A DNA stretch of 25,372 nucleotides, taken from Myxococcota bacterium (GTDB taxonomy: Bacteria > Myxococcota_C > UBA6777). Position 1 is the first letter of the stretch. Each line of letters starts with the position of its first letter. The notes under the pieces were generated by a model that did no database searches, had not been told where the DNA came from, and saw only the letters and a program-made list of their open reading frames with translations. Where the stretch lies: assembly GCA_023150835.1 (NCBI GenBank), contig JAKLKB010000101.1, positions 1 through 25,372 of the forward strand, given 5' to 3'. Both the position numbers and the translations under genes were made by a program. Of the stretch, positions 10,461 through 25,235 are shown piece by piece.

Positions 10461-10580
10461 TCATGCGAGATCCGCAGGGTGTGTGATCGCAAAACGTAGG
10501 GGCAGACAGGTGTGGCTGCCCAACAATCGGGCGTCTACACACTATCCTTCGGGAACACTTCACTCGGATATCGTATCATT
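10461..10580 (+). repeat. Palindromic intergenic repeat, copy A
   Basis: This copy carries the 5' arm (gcgagatccgc), GTGTGATCG (10481-10489), the core hairpin GGGGCAG...CTGCCC beginning at GTAGGGG (10496), a GGGCGTCTAC segment, and the 3' arm cggatatcgtatc. The partner of GTGTGATCG has decayed here to gggaacac. The copy lies downstream of the UPF0104 gene. Its 3' arm contains, in reverse, the TGA that ends the minus-strand reading frame at 10576. Confidence 0.85.
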
Positions 10581-12468: not shown

Positions 12469-14295
12469 ATGCACGAAGCTCACGCAAAAAGTTCGATGGG
12501 AGTGGGGTTTTGGGTCGGGCTGCTCGGTTTTTTGTTGTTGTGGGGAGCGGTACAATCAGGCTTCTGGCAGCCTCGTTCGGGCCATGAAGGTCTTTTGATC
12601 GGTCGGATGTTGGCGATTACGTGGTTGATGGCGGCTTGGTGGATGTCCGAAGCCTTGCCGATCCCGATTACTTCGCTGTTGCCGTTGGTGTTGCTTCCGA
12701 TGGCGGGGATCATGTCTGGCGACAAAGTCGCGCACGAATACACAAATGAAGTGATCTTTTTGTTTATGGGGGGATTTTTTCTTGCGTTGTCTTTGCAAAA
12801 GTGGGGCGTACATCGTCGGATGGCGCTGCATCTGGTGTTGCGAACGGGAGGGGGCCATCCGCGTTGGCTGATCTTGGGATTTATGGTGGCTTGTGCTTTT
12901 TTGTCGATGTGGATGAGCAACACAGCGACGGTGGTGATGTTGATGCCGATCGCCGTCTCTGTGATCCATCTGATGAAAGAAGAACAAGGCGATGCCGCCA
13001 TCCAGATGGGACAAGTTTTGTTGTTGGGCCTCGCCTACGCCGCAAGCATCGGTGGAATGGCAACCTTGGTGGGGACACCGCCCAACCTTTCGTTTGCGCG
13101 AATCTATAAGATGTATTTCCCAAACGCCCCCGAAGTCTCGTTTGTTGAGTGGCTCAAGTTTGGATTACCCGTCACCTTTGTGCTGTTGCCGACCTTTTGG
13201 CTTTTCATGGTGTTTGTGCTGTTCCGTCGCCCTCTTCAAGAAGTACGAGCGGGCGGAAACGTGCGAGCGTGGTTAGAAGAACAGCTCGCAGCGATGGGGC
13301 CGATGCGCGTCCAAGAAAAAGCTGTGTTATTGGTCTTTGCGATCACAGCCTTCTTATGGGTGTTTCGCGTCGATATCCAAATGGGTCCATCGTTTCGCAT
13401 CCCGGGTTGGATGGGCGCTTTGGGCCTCTACCACAACGTCAAGACGGTACGCTACGAACCACTCAAAACGGCCACCCAGTCCAAACAACACCCAACGACT
13501 CCAAACAAGCCGAGTGTTGCGCTGTCCAAGCCGAGTGTTGCGCTGTCCAAGCCGAGCGTTGCGCTGTCCAAGCCGAGTGTTGCGCTGTCCAAGCCGAGTG
13601 TTGCGCTGTCCAAGCCGAGTGCTGCGCTGTCCAAGCCCGTCCGAGCGTTGCCCAAATCAGGTAGCGAGTTGTATGTACGACGAGAGATCGTGCGGCGCAA
13701 GCCGCTGTTTGGGGACGGTGTGGTCGCGATGATGATGGCGCTGTTGTTGTTTTTGATGCCGGCAGGCGGTGGAGAGCGCTTGTTGGACTGGGAGAATGCG
13801 AAAGAGATCCCGTGGGGGATGTTGTTGCTGTTTGGAGGTGGATTTGCCCTTGCTGCGGGGATTCAATCAAGCGGGATGAGTGCATGGATTGGTGAGATCT
13901 TCCGTTGGCCGGGATTATCGGCCTTTGGGACGTTAGGGATCATCTTGTTTCTCTGCTTTTTGATCACCTTTGTGACGGAATTCACCTCAAACACCGCCAC
14001 GACGGAGATCTCTTTGGCAATGATCGCGCCTGTGGTTGCGACGTTTGGGGGGACGGGTGTGCATCCTTATTTGTTGATGGTGCCGATCACGATCTCGGCT
14101 TCGTGCGCATTTATGATGCCGGTCGCAACGCCGCCAAACGCGATCGTGTATGCCACAGGGATCGTCGGGATGCGTGCGATGGTGCGTGCAGGGTTTTGGC
14201 TCAACCTGATCTCGGCGGTCTTGATCGCGCTTTTGTTGTACGGGATCTTTTTGTGGATGGGGATTCCGCTGCGAGTCAAGCCCGATTGGCTTTGA
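12469..14295 (+). CDS. DASS/SLC13 sodium:anion symporter with repeat-expanded loop
   Basis: A 608-residue inner-membrane transporter of the divalent anion:Na+ symporter family, which takes up dicarboxylates such as succinate, or sulfate in some members. Both signature SNT motifs are present, SNTATVVMLMP (150-160) and TSNTATTEISL (from 506), as are both PPN motifs, GTPPN (202-206) and ATPPN (553-557). These place the sodium and substrate sites as in VcINDY. The family is usually about 450-500 residues. The extra length lies in a loop between the two inverted halves (about 325-408), which contains seven tandem copies of a KPSVALS-like heptapeptide (347-395) encoded by a 21-bp DNA repeat. Start: AAGGAG lies 10 bp before the ATG. 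The exact substrate cannot be read from the sequence. Confidence 0.9.
   Translation: MHEAHAKSSMGVGFWVGLLGFLLLWGAVQSGFWQPRSGHEGLLIGRMLAITWLMAAWWMSEALPIPITSLLPLVLLPMAGIMSGDKVAHEYTNEVIFLFMGGFFLALSLQKWGVHRRMALHLVLRTGGGHPRWLILGFMVACAFLSMWMSNTATVVMLMPIAVSVIHLMKEEQGDAAIQMGQVLLLGLAYAASIGGMATLVGTPPNLSFARIYKMYFPNAPEVSFVEWLKFGLPVTFVLLPTFWLFMVFVLFRRPLQEVRAGGNVRAWLEEQLAAMGPMRVQEKAVLLVFAITAFLWVFRVDIQMGPSFRIPGWMGALGLYHNVKTVRYEPLKTATQSKQHPTTPNKPSVALSKPSVALSKPSVALSKPSVALSKPSVALSKPSAALSKPVRALPKSGSELYVRREIVRRKPLFGDGVVAMMMALLLFLMPAGGGERLLDWENAKEIPWGMLLLFGGGFALAAGIQSSGMSAWIGEIFRWPGLSAFGTLGIILFLCFLITFVTEFTSNTATTEISLAMIAPVVATFGGTGVHPYLLMVPITISASCAFMMPVATPPNAIVYATGIVGMRAMVRAGFWLNLISAVLIALLLYGIFLWMGIPLRVKPDWL
13507..13653 (+). 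repeat. 21-bp in-frame tandem repeat inside the DASS gene
   Basis: Seven adjacent 21-bp units start at 13507, 13528, 13549, 13570, 13591, 13612 and 13633. The first five encode KPSVALS, the sixth KPSAALS and the seventh the degenerate KPVRALP. Because the period is a multiple of three the transporter frame is kept. Near-identity of the units suggests recent expansion and likely copy-number variation between strains. Confidence 0.97.
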
Positions 14296-19138: not shown

Positions 19139-19222
19139 TGTGATCGCAATACGTAGGGGCTGCCCAACAATCGGGTGTCTACGCACGACCCTTCGATCAC
19201 ACATCACACGGATATCGTATCA
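19117..19222 (+). repeat. Palindromic intergenic repeat, copy D
   Basis: The 5' arm tcgtacgagatccgcc and 3' arm cggatatcgtatca are near-complementary, and the outer stem GTGTGATCG (19138-19146) pairs perfectly with CGATCACAC (19194-19202). GTAGGGGC and GGGTGTCTAC are present, but about 12-15 bp of the core hairpin found in other copies is missing. It fills the gap between two convergent genes. TAG in its 5' half ends the plus-strand gene and TGA in its 3' end, read in reverse, ends protease 1. Confidence 0.9.
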
Positions 19223-21787
19223 CCCCACCCGACGGCGGATCAGGGCCAACAAAAGCAACAATCCCCATCCAAGCGGAAGACTCGGGTCATGGCCTCTCGT
19301 GTCACAGCCACACCCTCCGCCCGACGTGATCAGCGTTTCTGTCGTGGCTTGCTCTTTGGGGCTTTCTTGGACGGGCTCAGGAGTGCTTTCTGGGCTTGCA
19401 TCCGCCACAACCGCTTCTTCGATCACAGGCTCGGGGCTGATCTCGGCAGCGGGTTCAGGTACAAGTTCGGGGGTTGGTTCTTGCGTGGGTTCGGGGGAGA
19501 CGGGTTCGGGGGGAGGCTCATTTTTCTTGGTCGGATCAAAGACACAGATATCGTTTTCGCACTTGTGTTCTGCGGGGCAGCCTGTGTCCGCCTTACAAGG
19601 ACTTCCCTTGGCACGTGCGCAATAGCCGTAAACAGAGCCATCTTGCGAAGTAAACAGCCGCTCACACACGCTGCCTTGGGGACATTCCTTCGCATCGCGG
19701 CACAAGCAGATCGCAAAGTCACCGCCAAAACTCACGCAGTTTCCGTTGCCGTTGCACGGCACCGCAGAAGAGCAGCTTTGCATACACACTGGGCCATCTT
19801 GCTCGCTAGAGAAGCGATTGCAGCTTAACCCTTTTTCACAACGCAACGTCTGGCTGCACGATTGACCGGCCTTTTGCGTACCATCTCCCGGCAAACAAGC
19901 TCCCCCAACACTCGAAGTCGGGCGACACGAAGTCCCCGAAGGACAAGACGTTCCCGCACCTTTGCTCACACAAGCCCCAAATCCATACGAGCCTGTGACG
20001 GTGAGATTGCATTCTTGGTTGGGACCGCAATCGCTGTCTTGCTCACAGATGCAAGCCGAAAAGGTACGGCCCAATCGTTGGCAAGAACCGCCGTTCGCAC
20101 AAGTCCCCGAGCAGGCCCCCAAGCAAATCGCCAAACCACCGCCAAATTGGACGCATTGCAGCCCGGCATCGCACGTGCCTCCCGAACGACACTGGCTTCC
20201 CGCGCTCCCGTCTGGAGGACCACAGCCCAACGCGCAACGGCCCGCTTCTTCTGTTTCAGACACGCACTTGTAACCCGCTGCGCACACTGTTTGTTGGTTG
20301 CAAAAGTCACCGTATTTTCCGCCACCATCGCGCTTACAAACACCGCCCACACACTGATAATCCGATGGACAGGCGTTTTGAGCAGAACAATTCATGCTAC
20401 AGATCGCATTCGGTAAGCAGCGTTTGAGACCTGCGGCGATCTCTTTGCAAGCAAATCCCACAGGACAATAATCGCCCTCGCTGCAACCTTGGACGCAATA
20501 ACCAAGACCGCTATTTCCTCCCAAACAAAAGCCGTTGCTTCCGCATTGATCGCTGCTATAACACGGGCGGCAGATCTGCGCATTGGGCGCAGGCAACGAG
20601 ATCTTGCACACACCATTGTCGCAAACTTCGGAAGGGCCGCACTCTGTGTCAACCGTGCATTTGGCGGGAGGGCATTCGTTTTGCGAAGGAAAGCAGAGTT
20701 TCGCCGTGGCTCCCCCATCATCGGCATGTTCACGACAGAAACTACCACTCGGACAACAATTGTCCGTATTGCAGGGCATCACACAGCGATACCCCTCTTT
20801 TAATTGAAGACATTTTCCGCCACTACAATCGGCATCTTTACGGCAAGGCGCACAGACACCTGTGGGAAGCGAGACAGGTTTACGCTCACAAAACAGGTTC
20901 TTGCAAGTATCGCAGGAGCTACAGTTTTTGTCTTCGGTACAGGGTTTTGGCCCGTCGCTGTACTGATCGAGATAAGGCTGCAAAAAGTCTGTGAGGCTGG
21001 TGTCGACGCGGCAAGAAACGGCTCCCCCGTCGCAGTAGGTTTGCCCTGCTTGGCCGGTTGAAGTGGCGCGGTACGCCGTCGAAGTGACTCCCAAGATCAC
21101 CCATTTTCCGTCGATCATCGTCAGGGCCGGTCCACCCGAATCTCCGTGACAAGCGCTTTTGCGTTGAGCGACGGTAGGATTTTGATCGAAGTGGATGAAT
21201 GTGTTGGTGGCGATCTGATTGAGCGGGATATCCGCAGCGTATTTTTTGTCTGCGGAGACGATGCTTGGGCGGGTTTGGATCTGACCGTACCCCACAACAC
21301 GAACATTTTGGCCGATCAGCGATTGAGGGATCGGAGCCGTGTTGGGTGTGATCGGTGTGACGTTGTTGGCTTTGGTTTTGAGAACCAAGACAGCGATATC
21401 ATAATCCGAATAATTCGAAGTATTGCTTCGGCTGTATTTGGGGTGGGTGACGGCTTGGTCGAGTTGATAATAATCGCTGGTATAAGTACCGTTTGCGGCA
21501 GGAAAATCAACTCGATATTCTACGTTGGTGATGCCATATTGACGCACAGCTTCGACACAATGCGCAGCCGTCACCACAAGCTGCTTTGTCAACAACGTTC
21601 CTGTACAAAAAGGCGAGCGTCTGGCAGTCAAAGCCCCGATGGCAGGCTCGGATAGGTCACCTTGACCGTTGATGATAAACTTTTCTTGTTTCGCAGGCGC
21701 TTCTTCGATGCGTCGACAAGCCCCCGACCAAGCCCCCGCCAAGACCAACGCGGCCAACCAAAAAAAACGAATTCGAACCCGTGACAT
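19220..21787 (-). CDS. Trypsin-fold Cys-rich surface protease 1 (MYXO-CTERM-like tail)
   Basis: The ATG at 21787 follows AAAGGA by 7 bp. The 855-residue product has a lipoprotein-like signal peptide (Cys24, WSGAC). Residues 38-275 form an S1-family serine protease domain with the full triad: His76 in VVTAAHC, Asp130 in DYDIAVLVL and Ser217 in HGDSGGP. The residue six before the catalytic Ser is Ser211, not the Asp of trypsin, so Lys/Arg cleavage is not predicted. About 450 residues of Cys-rich modules follow (CRKDADCSGGKC, CTVDTECGPSEVC and others), then a Pro/Glu-rich linker. The end, GGGCGC, then a hydrophobic helix and RRR, resembles the MYXO-CTERM sorting signal. The protein is probably displayed on the surface. 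It is a paralogue of the next gene upstream. Confidence 0.88.
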   Translation of the reverse strand: MSRVRIRFFWLAALVLAGAWSGACRRIEEAPAKQEKFIINGQGDLSEPAIGALTARRSPFCTGTLLTKQLVVTAAHCVEAVRQYGITNVEYRVDFPAANGTYTSDYYQLDQAVTHPKYSRSNTSNYSDYDIAVLVLKTKANNVTPITPNTAPIPQSLIGQNVRVVGYGQIQTRPSIVSADKKYAADIPLNQIATNTFIHFDQNPTVAQRKSACHGDSGGPALTMIDGKWVILGVTSTAYRATSTGQAGQTYCDGGAVSCRVDTSLTDFLQPYLDQYSDGPKPCTEDKNCSSCDTCKNLFCERKPVSLPTGVCAPCRKDADCSGGKCLQLKEGYRCVMPCNTDNCCPSGSFCREHADDGGATAKLCFPSQNECPPAKCTVDTECGPSEVCDNGVCKISLPAPNAQICRPCYSSDQCGSNGFCLGGNSGLGYCVQGCSEGDYCPVGFACKEIAAGLKRCLPNAICSMNCSAQNACPSDYQCVGGVCKRDGGGKYGDFCNQQTVCAAGYKCVSETEEAGRCALGCGPPDGSAGSQCRSGGTCDAGLQCVQFGGGLAICLGACSGTCANGGSCQRLGRTFSACICEQDSDCGPNQECNLTVTGSYGFGACVSKGAGTSCPSGTSCRPTSSVGGACLPGDGTQKAGQSCSQTLRCEKGLSCNRFSSEQDGPVCMQSCSSAVPCNGNGNCVSFGGDFAICLCRDAKECPQGSVCERLFTSQDGSVYGYCARAKGSPCKADTGCPAEHKCENDICVFDPTKKNEPPPEPVSPEPTQEPTPELVPEPAAEISPEPVIEEAVVADASPESTPEPVQESPKEQATTETLITSGGGCGCDTRGHDPSLPLGWGLLLLLALIRRRVG

Positions 21788-21829: not shown

Positions 21830-21953
21830 CAACAAATCACTGTAGTCTATTTCGATGGCTGAAATCTCTTTTGGAATTGGTATTTGGGCGAGAAGATCAA
21901 CACATCCTGAAACGCAGCGGAGACACACTAGGCGAGGCCTGACACAAGATGTT

Positions 21954-21968
21954 GTTCAAAGATTGAAC
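21954..21968. promoter_or_regulatory. Palindrome GTTCAA-N3-TTGAAC upstream of protease 1
   Basis: The perfect palindrome GTTCAAAGATTGAAC is centred 174 bp upstream of the protease 1 start codon. The identical 15 bp occurs at the matching place upstream of protease 2. Two 6-bp half-sites separated by 3 bp are typical of sites bound by dimeric regulators. The regulator is unknown. Confidence 0.6.
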
Positions 21969-22000
21969 GGCTTTATGGCGAAAACCCTCGATTCGGCGCA

Positions 22001-22130
22001 GTAGTGCGAAATCCGCCCATTGCGTGATCGTAAAGAGGTAGGGGCAGCCACAGGGGTCTGCCCAACAATAGGGCTTCTACAGCGGATCGCGTCTCCCCTT
22101 CGATCACACTGCTCTCGGATATCGTGTGAT
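22001..22130 (+). repeat. Palindromic intergenic repeat, copy E
   Basis: This is the longest unduplicated copy. It has the 5' arm gtgcgaaatccgccc, GTGATCG (22024-22030) pairing with CGATCAC (22101-22107), core GTAGGGGCAG...CTGCCC, GGGCTTCTAC and the 3' arm cggatatcgtgtgat. About 10 bp are inserted after CTAC relative to other copies. It lies between the upstream region of protease 1 and the 3' end of protease 2, ending 2-3 bp before the protease 2 stop codon. Confidence 0.88.
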
Positions 22131-22132
22131 GT

Positions 22133-24757
22133 TCAGAGGCGTTTTCGCCGCCCCCACAAGAACAGCCCAAAGACAGCGAAGAAAGCAAGCCATAAGGAAG
22201 AATCTTTCTCGCCCGACGCGACAGAACAACCACAGCCTCCGCCGAGGATCTTTGGTTCGGTGGTGATCTCTGGGCTGTTGTTTGAAGAGTCGGAAGGCCC
22301 GGCATCTTGGGCGCTCTCTTCGCTTACAGCCATCGCTTCTTCGGGTGCGCTCTCCGCTGCCTGTTCGACCGCAGGCTCAAAAAGCTCAGGGGTCGGTTCG
22401 GTCGGCGTCTCGGAGGGCTTTTCTTCGACGGGTTCGGTAGGTTTTGCGAAGACACAAGCACCCGCGTTGCAGGTGTAGTCTTTGGGACAATCCTTGTCTG
22501 CGGTGCAATTGGCGTTGAATGCGGGGCGACAGATGCCGACCCCTTGATCACGAAAGACCAGATCGCATTGCTTTCCAAGGCCACAATCTTGATCGCGCTG
22601 ACAGACGCAAAGCAACAGTCCACCGCCAAAGTCCGCACATCCACCGCCGTTAGAACAAGTGTTGTTGGAATCGCAAGTCTCCATGCAGCGGGGGGTTCCG
22701 TCAAAGTTATAACAAGCCAGTCCCGACTGACAACGCAAGGTGCGGCTACAGATCGCACCTGCGCGCAAATCCCCGTCTTCAGGGAGACAAGACTTGCTTG
22801 ACGAAGCCGATCGACACACCAGCGGATCGGGGCAAGGCGGCGGGGCTTTTGTTTTGTCGACACATCCACCAAGCGCCGAAGAAGCCCATCGGTTGATGTT
22901 GCAGAATTGGTCTGCTTTGCAGTCGCTATCGCTGCGACAGACGCACACCGTGATACCCTGTTGGATGTTGGTACAGATCCCGCCGTCCGCACAGGCTTGG
23001 CCGATGTTGGTACAATCTTTCATACAAGCAGGAGTGCGTGTACCGAAACAAGAAAGGCCCGTATCACAGGCACGATTGCTGCCACAAGCATTCCCCGCAA
23101 CAAGGCCATTGGGAGCGCAATTCAAGGCACAGCGGCCACTTCCATCATCTTCGGACAAACAGCGGTAGTTGGGCGCACAAGTGAACCCATCCGCACAAAA
23201 ATCACCGTCTTTTCCGCCCTCATCGCGTTTGCAGCTTCCTCCGCTACAGGTGTATCCGTTTGGGCAAGCCGTCACATCATCGCAGCGCATAAAGCATCCT
23301 GCTTGGGGGATACATTGTTTCGTGCCTTGCGTGAGTTGCGTACAAAGGAAGCCCTCGGGGCAATAATCGCCTGCACCGCAGCCTTGGACGCAATAACCCA
23401 AACCACTCCCCGGCTCCAAACAAAAACCGACGCCGCAATCGGCGCTACTCTTACAAGGTCGGCAAAGTTGAGCGATCGGCGTGGGGCGCTCGATCTTGCA
23501 GACGCCTTGTGTGCAAAGCTCGGCAGGACCGCAGTCCGCGTTGGTTTGGCATGACGCAGGTGGGCAAACCCCGTTGGAAGGGCGACAAGAAAGCGTGGCT
23601 TGTGCGCCTCCCCCTGCGACAGTTTGGCAGATCCCGCCGGATGGGCATTGATAGCACGCGGCGTCTGTACACGGCTGCATACAGCGAAAGCCTTCGGATG
23701 TACGCAAGCATTGGCCGCTAAAACCGCAATCTGCGTCCGTGGCGCAAGGCTTACAGTATGTTGTGGCGCTGACGGTTGCGGCCCCACAAGCCCCTTGTTG
23801 GCACGCTCCACAAGCCCCGCAATCAGCGTCTGTTGTGCAGGTTGGCGGAGTGTCTGCGTAGCGTTTTAGATAAGGCTCCAAAAAGGCGATATTCACATCC
23901 AATCGCGCCGATACACCGGCAGAATCGCAAAAGGTCATGTTGGTTTGTGGGTCAGGCGTAGCACCTTCGACCACAGAACTGACGCCGAGAATATATTCCA
24001 CGCCGTTGACGGTGTACAACGCAGGCCCGCCCGAATCCCCGTTGCATACGCTTTTTTTGGTGGCTTTGTCCCAATGACGAAAAGACCGAGGCCGGATCTC
24101 ATCAAGCGGGATCATCGCGGATTGTTTGCTTTGCGCGGAAAGCCGCTGGGGTTGGGTTTGAACCAGCCCATACCCGACCAGTTTCAAATCCGTTGTCAAC
24201 CAAGTCGTTGGGATCGCGGTTCGGTTGACAGGGACGGGAATCACCCCAGAGACGGGCTGTTTGAGTATCCAGATCGCAACATCGTAGTCGGAATAAGCTT
24301 GCACAGAAACGCTTCGGCTGTAGCGAGGATGCGCAGCCGAATCTTGGACCTCGTACAACGCCGTCGTGAATGTGACGCCGTCGGCGTTGGGCGTATCGAC
24401 ACGGAAGCGAAAGTTTCCCAGATCCTCTGCAACGCCCTCCACACAATGGGCCGCTGTCACGACAAGTCGGCTGCTCAACAAAGTACCTGTGCAAAAGGGC
24501 GAATATCCGCTTCCTGCGCGCCGCATGAGAGCGCCGATCGCGGGATTGGAGATATCTTGCGCCCCGTGAATGATCGAGCGGCGGGTTGTTTCATAAGCAG
24601 ATGGGGACGGCACGCGCTCACACCCCCCGCTCCACAACCCAAGCAAGCAGACGACCCAAACCAACCTCCAAAAAGGCCGATGCACCAAGATCTCGGAACC
24701 CAAAACCATTTTCCTTTTTTGGGTGGTATTTGAAACAAGAAGTGGGGTATGCAACAT
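22133..24757 (-). CDS. Trypsin-fold Cys-rich surface protease 2 (MYXO-CTERM-like tail)
   Basis: The start at 24757 is chosen because GAAGGA lies 6-7 bp upstream and because it puts the shared palindrome at the same distance as in protease 1. An ATG at 24709 would give a more usual signal-peptide length but has a poorly spaced ribosome site. The 874-residue product has a lipobox WSGGC (Cys46 with this start). Residues 62-305 are an S1 serine protease domain with His104 (VVTAAHC), Asp159 (DYDVAIWIL) and Ser242 (NGDSGGP). The specificity position is again Ser (236). Cys-rich modules, a Glu/Pro-rich linker, GGGCGC, a hydrophobic helix (LWLAFFAVFGLFLW) and GRRKRL complete it. The domain order matches protease 1 throughout, so the pair arose by tandem duplication and has since diverged. 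Confidence 0.88.
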   Translation of the reverse strand: MLHTPLLVSNTTQKRKMVLGSEILVHRPFWRLVWVVCLLGLWSGGCERVPSPSAYETTRRSIIHGAQDISNPAIGALMRRAGSGYSPFCTGTLLSSRLVVTAAHCVEGVAEDLGNFRFRVDTPNADGVTFTTALYEVQDSAAHPRYSRSVSVQAYSDYDVAIWILKQPVSGVIPVPVNRTAIPTTWLTTDLKLVGYGLVQTQPQRLSAQSKQSAMIPLDEIRPRSFRHWDKATKKSVCNGDSGGPALYTVNGVEYILGVSSVVEGATPDPQTNMTFCDSAGVSARLDVNIAFLEPYLKRYADTPPTCTTDADCGACGACQQGACGAATVSATTYCKPCATDADCGFSGQCLRTSEGFRCMQPCTDAACYQCPSGGICQTVAGGGAQATLSCRPSNGVCPPASCQTNADCGPAELCTQGVCKIERPTPIAQLCRPCKSSADCGVGFCLEPGSGLGYCVQGCGAGDYCPEGFLCTQLTQGTKQCIPQAGCFMRCDDVTACPNGYTCSGGSCKRDEGGKDGDFCADGFTCAPNYRCLSEDDGSGRCALNCAPNGLVAGNACGSNRACDTGLSCFGTRTPACMKDCTNIGQACADGGICTNIQQGITVCVCRSDSDCKADQFCNINRWASSALGGCVDKTKAPPPCPDPLVCRSASSSKSCLPEDGDLRAGAICSRTLRCQSGLACYNFDGTPRCMETCDSNNTCSNGGGCADFGGGLLLCVCQRDQDCGLGKQCDLVFRDQGVGICRPAFNANCTADKDCPKDYTCNAGACVFAKPTEPVEEKPSETPTEPTPELFEPAVEQAAESAPEEAMAVSEESAQDAGPSDSSNNSPEITTEPKILGGGCGCSVASGEKDSSLWLAFFAVFGLFLWGRRKRL

Positions 24758-24823
24758 CAAAAATCCTTCTGTCCTGTCTGTCCAAAGAGCAACAACACGC
24801 GCAGAAAGGTTGGATGTGGGCCA

Positions 24824-24856
24824 TAAAAAAGCGTTGCGAATCGCTCCCCCCGCAAC
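24824..24856 (-). terminator. Terminator-like hairpin in the protease 2 leader
   Basis: Read on the minus strand, GTTGCG (24856-24851) pairs with CGCAAC (24838-24833), followed by GC and six T (24830-24825). This lies between the shared palindrome and the start codon of protease 2, so it could act as an attenuator or, less likely, end a transcript from upstream. The stem is only 6 bp and the loop is 12 bases. Confidence 0.3.
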
Positions 24857-24927
24857 AGACCTTTTCCAACGCCCCAACCAAACGGCGCAAAACAAAACGA
24901 ACGTAGAACATACCCAAGAGGCTCGCT

Positions 24928-24942
24928 GTTCAAAGATTGAAC
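24928..24942. promoter_or_regulatory. Palindrome GTTCAA-N3-TTGAAC upstream of protease 2
   Basis: This is identical to the site at 21954-21968 over all 15 bp and one flanking T. It is centred 178 bp upstream of the protease 2 start at 24757, against 174 bp for protease 1. The leader sequences between site and start show no obvious similarity by eye. Confidence 0.6.
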
Positions 24943-25159: not shown

Positions 25160-25186
25160 GGGCAGGCACGGGGGCCTGCCCCTACA
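25160..25186 (-). repeat. Repeat core hairpin, reversed copy F
   Basis: Read on the minus strand this is GTAGGGGCAGGC followed by GCCTGCC, the same core hairpin as copies A, B, C and E but in opposite orientation. The stem bases differ from the others yet still pair. The outer arms are absent. Confidence 0.7.
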
Positions 25187-25187
25187 A

Positions 25188-25235
25188 AACACCGTGTGAT
25201 TTCCAACACGTAGGGGCAACCATGTGTGGTTGCCA
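25188..25235 (+). repeat. Repeat core hairpin, forward copy G
   Basis: GTGTGAT (25194-25200), then GTAGGGGCAACC paired with GGTTGCC (to about 25234), gives a forward core hairpin 20 bp from copy F, so that CCCCTAC and GTAGGGG face each other. The pair forms an inverted doublet upstream of the gene at 25312. Confidence 0.7.

Follow-up and report, generated by a model that had tools for sequence, protein, structure and literature searches.

What would an identical 15-bp palindrome be doing in front of two neighboring genes for surface proteases? The sequence GTTCAAAGATTGAAC occurs exactly at 21954-21968 and at 24928-24942 of the window (the whole 25,372-nt stretch of DNA that was analyzed), and because both protease genes lie on the minus strand, the gene-strand sequence is GTTCAATCTTTGAAC in both cases. 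The two genes are adjacent and in the same orientation, and their products share 43% identity over the whole length. Each protease carries an N-terminal signal peptide with a cysteine and a C-terminal MYXO-CTERM sorting signal, the latter scoring 20.0 bits in protease 1 and 22.7 bits in protease 2 against TIGR03901 (NCBIfam cut-off 20). The lineage is uncultured and known only from assembled genomes; we know of no study of regulation in this deep, uncultured Myxococcota-related lineage, and the regulation of MYXO-CTERM surface proteins appears to have been little studied. The features of the locus are as follows.

19220..21787, minus strand: protease 1, with a signal peptide with Cys, a trypsin domain (PF00089, E 3e-23), Cys-rich repeats and a MYXO-CTERM tail (TIGR03901, 20.0 bits)
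21925..21930, minus strand: predicted -10 hexamer TAGTGT, 23 bp 3' of palindrome 1 (offset statistics; predicted +1 at ~21918)
21954..21968, minus strand: palindrome 1 (GTTCAATCTTTGAAC on the gene strand), 5' of protease 1 (exact match; center at ~-43 of the predicted transcription start)
22133..24757, minus strand: protease 2, a paralog of protease 1 with a trypsin domain (PF00089) and a MYXO-CTERM tail (profile matches)
24900..24905, minus strand: predicted -10 hexamer TACGTT, 22 bp 3' of palindrome 2 (offset statistics; predicted +1 at ~24893)
24928..24942, minus strand: palindrome 2 (GTTCAATCTTTGAAC on the gene strand), 5' of protease 2 (exact match; center at ~-42 of the predicted transcription start)

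A scan of the 25,372-nt window with up to 3 mismatches allowed retrieved no third match to GTTCAAAGATTGAAC, confirming that the two identical palindromes lie where the sequence-only reading had placed them and nowhere else in the window. That reading had also called for a genome scan for GTTCAA-N3-TTGAAC. In the genome to which the window belongs (G000; 7.56 Mb in 239 contigs), the pattern has 4 matches, as opposed to 1 for a reversed-pattern control, and all four are situated 109-178 bp 5' of genes for surface proteins bearing a signal peptide and lipobox. These genes encode the two trypsin-like proteases and two Cys-rich lipoprotein-like proteins, one of 952 residues (C107, site 109 bp upstream) and one of 1008 residues (C225, site 137 bp upstream). 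The comparison set was then the five genomes G000-G004, all fragmented assemblies, and the order, class and phylum levels give the identical five. Together they hold 16 sites against 1 control match, and 11 of the 16 are promoter-located, 5' of secreted lipoprotein-type (lipobox) genes that include MYXO-CTERM proteases. The placement is thus non-random both in the genome (4/4) and in the clade (11/16). We would like to note that genes were called with a home-made codon-usage caller, and that no enrichment p-value is given for lipoproteins because our crude lipoprotein classifier is positive for 28% of background genes. The five remaining sites comprise one in a HEAT-repeat frame (G001:C17), one within a called gene (G004:C101) and three on G003:C281. 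The last are exact GTTCAACCGTTGAAC-type palindromes (L040:2260, 3711 and 5587) inside 3.4 kb of a single 5.9-kb contig that carries one tRNA-Thr and no called genes, and they are unrelated to the promoter set. Text searches of the literature retrieved no description of a GTTCAA-N3-TTGAAC motif.

Similarity between the two leaders could in principle account for a shared block. Local alignment of the leaders scored 33, with 31 as the best of 500 shuffles, and the two are alike only in the palindrome, a few flanking bases and a piece of a genome-wide dispersed repeat. The earlier claim that the leaders are unrelated around the palindrome is therefore borne out, apart from the dispersed-repeat piece, and we reject duplication of the leader as the source of the match. 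The dispersed repeat itself is a palindromic element of ~94 bp (core GTAGGGGCAG...CTGCCC with ...GGATATCGTAT) with at least 54 copies in G000, several of them in tandem; its copies in the window are at 10496, 11161, 14349, 19153, 22038 and 25185-25210, and one copy lies between the stop codon of protease 2 and palindrome 1. That the 15-bp palindrome is a component of this repeat is likewise rejected, given at least 54 copies of the one versus 4 of the other in G000. The window also contains two tandem repeats, a 9-bp unit repeated 15 times at the contig end (1-137) and a 21-bp unit repeated 6 times (13506-13637) inside a symporter-like gene (12469-14295).

The sites are conserved in related genomes. 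All four G000 sites are kept in the sister species G001 (MAG KLAP109), with the counterparts of palindromes 1 and 2 at C37:3939 and C37:6910, respectively. The site at the C107 lipoprotein promoter is shared by three genera, TCT spacer included, and is exact in G000, G001 and G002; it reads GTTCAATCTTTGAAC in G002:C52 (genus g2) and GTTCAATCTTTAAAC in G004:C22 (genus g3), the orthologs having been recognized through a neighboring ThiF/MoeB-like gene whose name was judged from sequence. The C225 lipoprotein gene, recognized in G002 through its preceding kinase-like gene, has a 1-mismatch copy there (GTTCCATTCTTGAAC). In G004, exact sites stand 5' of a trypsin-family gene (C84), at a syntenic locus with a lepA-like gene close by, as in G001, and 5' of a second secreted protease (C178). 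Such conservation at orthologous promoters in other genera supports an operator-like site. As separate observations, ~400 bp 5' of the C107 ortholog in G004 there is another palindrome, an imperfect one, GTTCACAGTGTGAAC, followed after 23 bp by TACACT (C22:32910-32953), and the C225 Cys-rich lipoprotein (L017:8806-11832 in G000) has a match to the MXAN_6577-like Cys-rich family and a weak one to the outer membrane exchange receptor TraA, both below curated cut-offs.

The five genomes have 82 PF00089 matches, and to place the motif among trypsin genes the 500 bp 5' of the trypsin domain were taken for 70 of them. In 6 of these upstream regions the best motif match is free of mismatches, 4 regions have a best match with 1 mismatch, and a further 4 have one with 2. 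In the same 70 regions, eight control patterns (reversed, half-sites swapped, spacers of 1, 2, 4 and 5, and two permuted palindromes) gave 0, 0 and 0-3 matches at 0, 1 and 2 mismatches, so that at no more than 1 mismatch the motif is found in 10/70 and the controls in none. As most trypsin genes do not carry it, it is not a general feature of the family. The motif label changes 8 times on a maximum-likelihood tree of 46 domains, with at least 6 changes forced by well-supported branches; because the motif-bearing proteases form no single clade, the site is the mark of some proteases and does not follow any one gene lineage.

The palindrome also stands at a fixed distance from a -10-like element. 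Fourteen target sites, gathered before their downstream sequence was inspected, were aligned on the palindrome in the direction of the gene, and each offset was scored with an E. coli -10 matrix, which may not fit the promoters of this clade exactly. The score peaks at 22/23 bp 3' of the palindrome, with a mean of 1.65 compared to -0.85 for the next best offset outside the neighboring one, and none of 20,000 circular shifts reached this peak at any offset. As the pattern had first been noticed by eye, the data were split: the exact sites alone (n=7) peak at 22 (p 0.00095), and the degenerate protease sites alone (n=6) also peak at 22 (p 0.00145). On the opposite side of the palindrome neither site set has a -10 peak (p 0.57 and 0.95). 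In the whole of G000, the two protease promoters of this window are the only places where an exact palindrome is followed at 22-23 bp by TANNNT. Should the hexamer be a -10 element, the palindrome would cover ~-49 to -35 and be centered at -42 for protease 2 and -43 for protease 1. At nine promoters with a clear -10, the hexamer 17 bp 5' of it matches TTGACA at no more than 2 of 6 bases, by a count made by eye. The -10 is weak or missing at the expected place in the targets C225, C84, C8 and C22. An RNA hairpin in the leader is unlikely because the predicted transcription start comes 3' of the palindrome; no Rfam match was found in the window.

The constancy of this distance does not extend to the start codons. 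The sequence-only reading had the palindrome centers 174 and 178 bp upstream of the two ATGs, which is correct for starts at 21787 and 24757, and had treated these matching positions as a feature of the motif. Elsewhere the distance from palindrome to ATG spans 81 to 302 bp, so the similarity of the two values is incidental, and what is constant is the 22-23 bp to the -10-like element. The palindrome lends no support to 24757 as the start of protease 2, as had been argued. That start is favored instead by its ribosome-binding site, which is identical in the sister species G001, whereas the ribosome-binding site that serves the other possible ATG (24709) differs in that species, with AAAAAAGAAAA in place of AAAAAAGGAAA.

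Taken as a site on DNA, the palindrome is probably where a putative regulator docks to switch on a small set of cell-surface genes. More specifically, we favor, at a probability of about 0.6, a putative homodimeric activator of the class II type driving a small regulon of envelope lipoproteins and proteases. A homodimeric transcription factor would bind the palindrome at ~-49 to -35 (center ~-42) and stand in for the -35 hexamer that these promoters lack, contacting an RNA polymerase that would use the -10 element 22-23 bp downstream. One such factor may switch on MYXO-CTERM trypsin-like lipoprotein proteases, Cys-rich surface lipoproteins and a few other envelope proteins. The sequence-only reading had proposed a functional operator controlling both surface proteases together; the shared operator-like site is strengthened by the genome-wide and cross-genus scan, and the two genes would respond jointly. 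A more ambitious version, to which we would give somewhat less than even odds, is that a lineage-specific global activator would govern the cell-surface digestive and adhesive coat through the -42 palindrome, bringing MYXO-CTERM proteases and Cys-rich lipoproteins under common control.

The main rival, unlikely but by some way the strongest of the alternatives, is that the palindrome is a repressor operator or dual-acting site over the -35 region, at which the regulator would hold off RNA polymerase until a signal lifts the block. Repressors, too, commonly have palindromic 6-3-6 sites near -35, and all the conservation and spacing data fit. However, a repressor site could sit anywhere over the promoter, yet here the spacing to the -10 is constant to 1 bp, and clear -10 elements without a recognizable -35 hexamer suit a promoter in need of help. 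We consider it improbable that the palindrome is instead part of an alternative sigma factor promoter with TTGAAC as its -35, even though TTGAAC resembles a -35 hexamer and the constant downstream spacing is promoter-like. The distance from TTGAAC to the -10 is 22-23 bp, ~5 bp over the spacing of known two-part promoters of the sigma-70 family, and conservation covers both halves of the palindrome, more than a sigma factor would require; it is for these two reasons that the sigma-factor reading is unlikely, and the downstream element moreover scores as an ordinary -10.

Two further readings are very improbable, and to about the same degree. That the palindrome is the LexA (SOS) box of this lineage is suggested by GTTC-N7-GAAC, which shares half-site and spacing with the alphaproteobacterial LexA motif, GTTC-N7-GTTC, and by the presence of GTTCAATACTAGACA (3 mismatches) in the lexA leaders of G002 and G003. 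We nevertheless disfavor it: the best copies in the lexA leaders of G001-G004 have 3-4 mismatches, and none of the promoter-located exact sites lies at an SOS gene, be it recA or the imuA/imuB/dnaE2 cassette. A lexA gene was not found in the G000 assembly. The alphaproteobacterial boxes also have their GTTC half-sites 7 bp apart as a direct repeat, whereas here they are inverted. The other reading, that the copies have no function and are a relic of tandem gene duplication or of chance, draws on the paralogy (43% identity), adjacency and common orientation of the proteases, but the leaders are otherwise unrelated, the motif is met again in three genera and in front of unrelated lipoprotein genes, and the scatter of motif-bearing proteases over their tree forces at least 6 label changes.

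The class II type activator that we prefer has known counterparts. In class II promoters of the CRP/FNR type, a dimer at ~-42 contacts the polymerase and makes up for a missing -35. The promoters described here are predicted to resemble those of CRP, FNR and PrfA type in having a palindrome near -41.5/-42, a usable -10 and a poor -35: in both site sets the site is predicted to lie near -41.5 over the -35 region with fixed spacing to the -10, and the -35 hexamer is poor or absent at the nine promoters with a clear -10. The sites of CRP (TGTGA-N6-TCACA) and FNR (TTGAT-N4-ATCAA), in contrast, differ in sequence from GTTCAA-N3-TTGAAC. The T-N11-A symmetry of the 15-bp interrupted dyad GTTC-N7-GAAC fits the box of LysR-type regulators (LTTRs) and would suit such a protein; LTTR recognition sites, however, are mostly located near -65, and the regulator gene is usually adjacent and divergent, whereas the site here is predicted at ~-42, and beside the palindromes the window showed no gene for a regulator. 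An IclR-type protein would fit the 15-bp form; IclR-family 15-bp near-palindromes begin with GTTC and some are used for activation, but compared with PcaR/PcaU-type operators the half-site sequence is only partly similar and there is no linked regulator gene. Palindromic activator sites that serve a small regulon are an ordinary kind of system. A domain scan of the ten other proteins of the window found no DNA-binding (HTH) domain, and no gene for a recognized DNA-binding protein was found among the target promoters with a good site and -10. The 15-bp bait and the predicted start offer a tractable handle on the regulator and signal of this surface protease and lipoprotein program.

The regulon is wider than the two proteases. 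Sites with 1 mismatch and a correctly spaced -10 or near -10 precede further lipoprotein-type genes, among them the trypsin genes C169, G002:C88 and G003:C817. Other candidates with such a site are a lipoprotein gene with MKKCMMCVGLFALVGVLMPGC (G003:C466), a lipoprotein-like gene (G003:C329) and an envelope-protein-like gene (G002:C1:672); these three are leads outside the statistics, because the scans that retrieved them allowed mismatches or made use of the -10. When whole genomes were searched for the composite motif with up to 2 mismatches, the total was near background, which means that sequence alone does not suffice to list the full regulon. One last site, GTTCAAAGATTGAGC (L018:5981-5995, G000:C8:24480; L047:694), lies 5' of a gene for a 52-residue lipoprotein. 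Its only good -10, TACTAT at 22 bp, faces away from that gene, toward a side on which no gene was called, and both the site and its TACTAT are conserved in the sister species G001.
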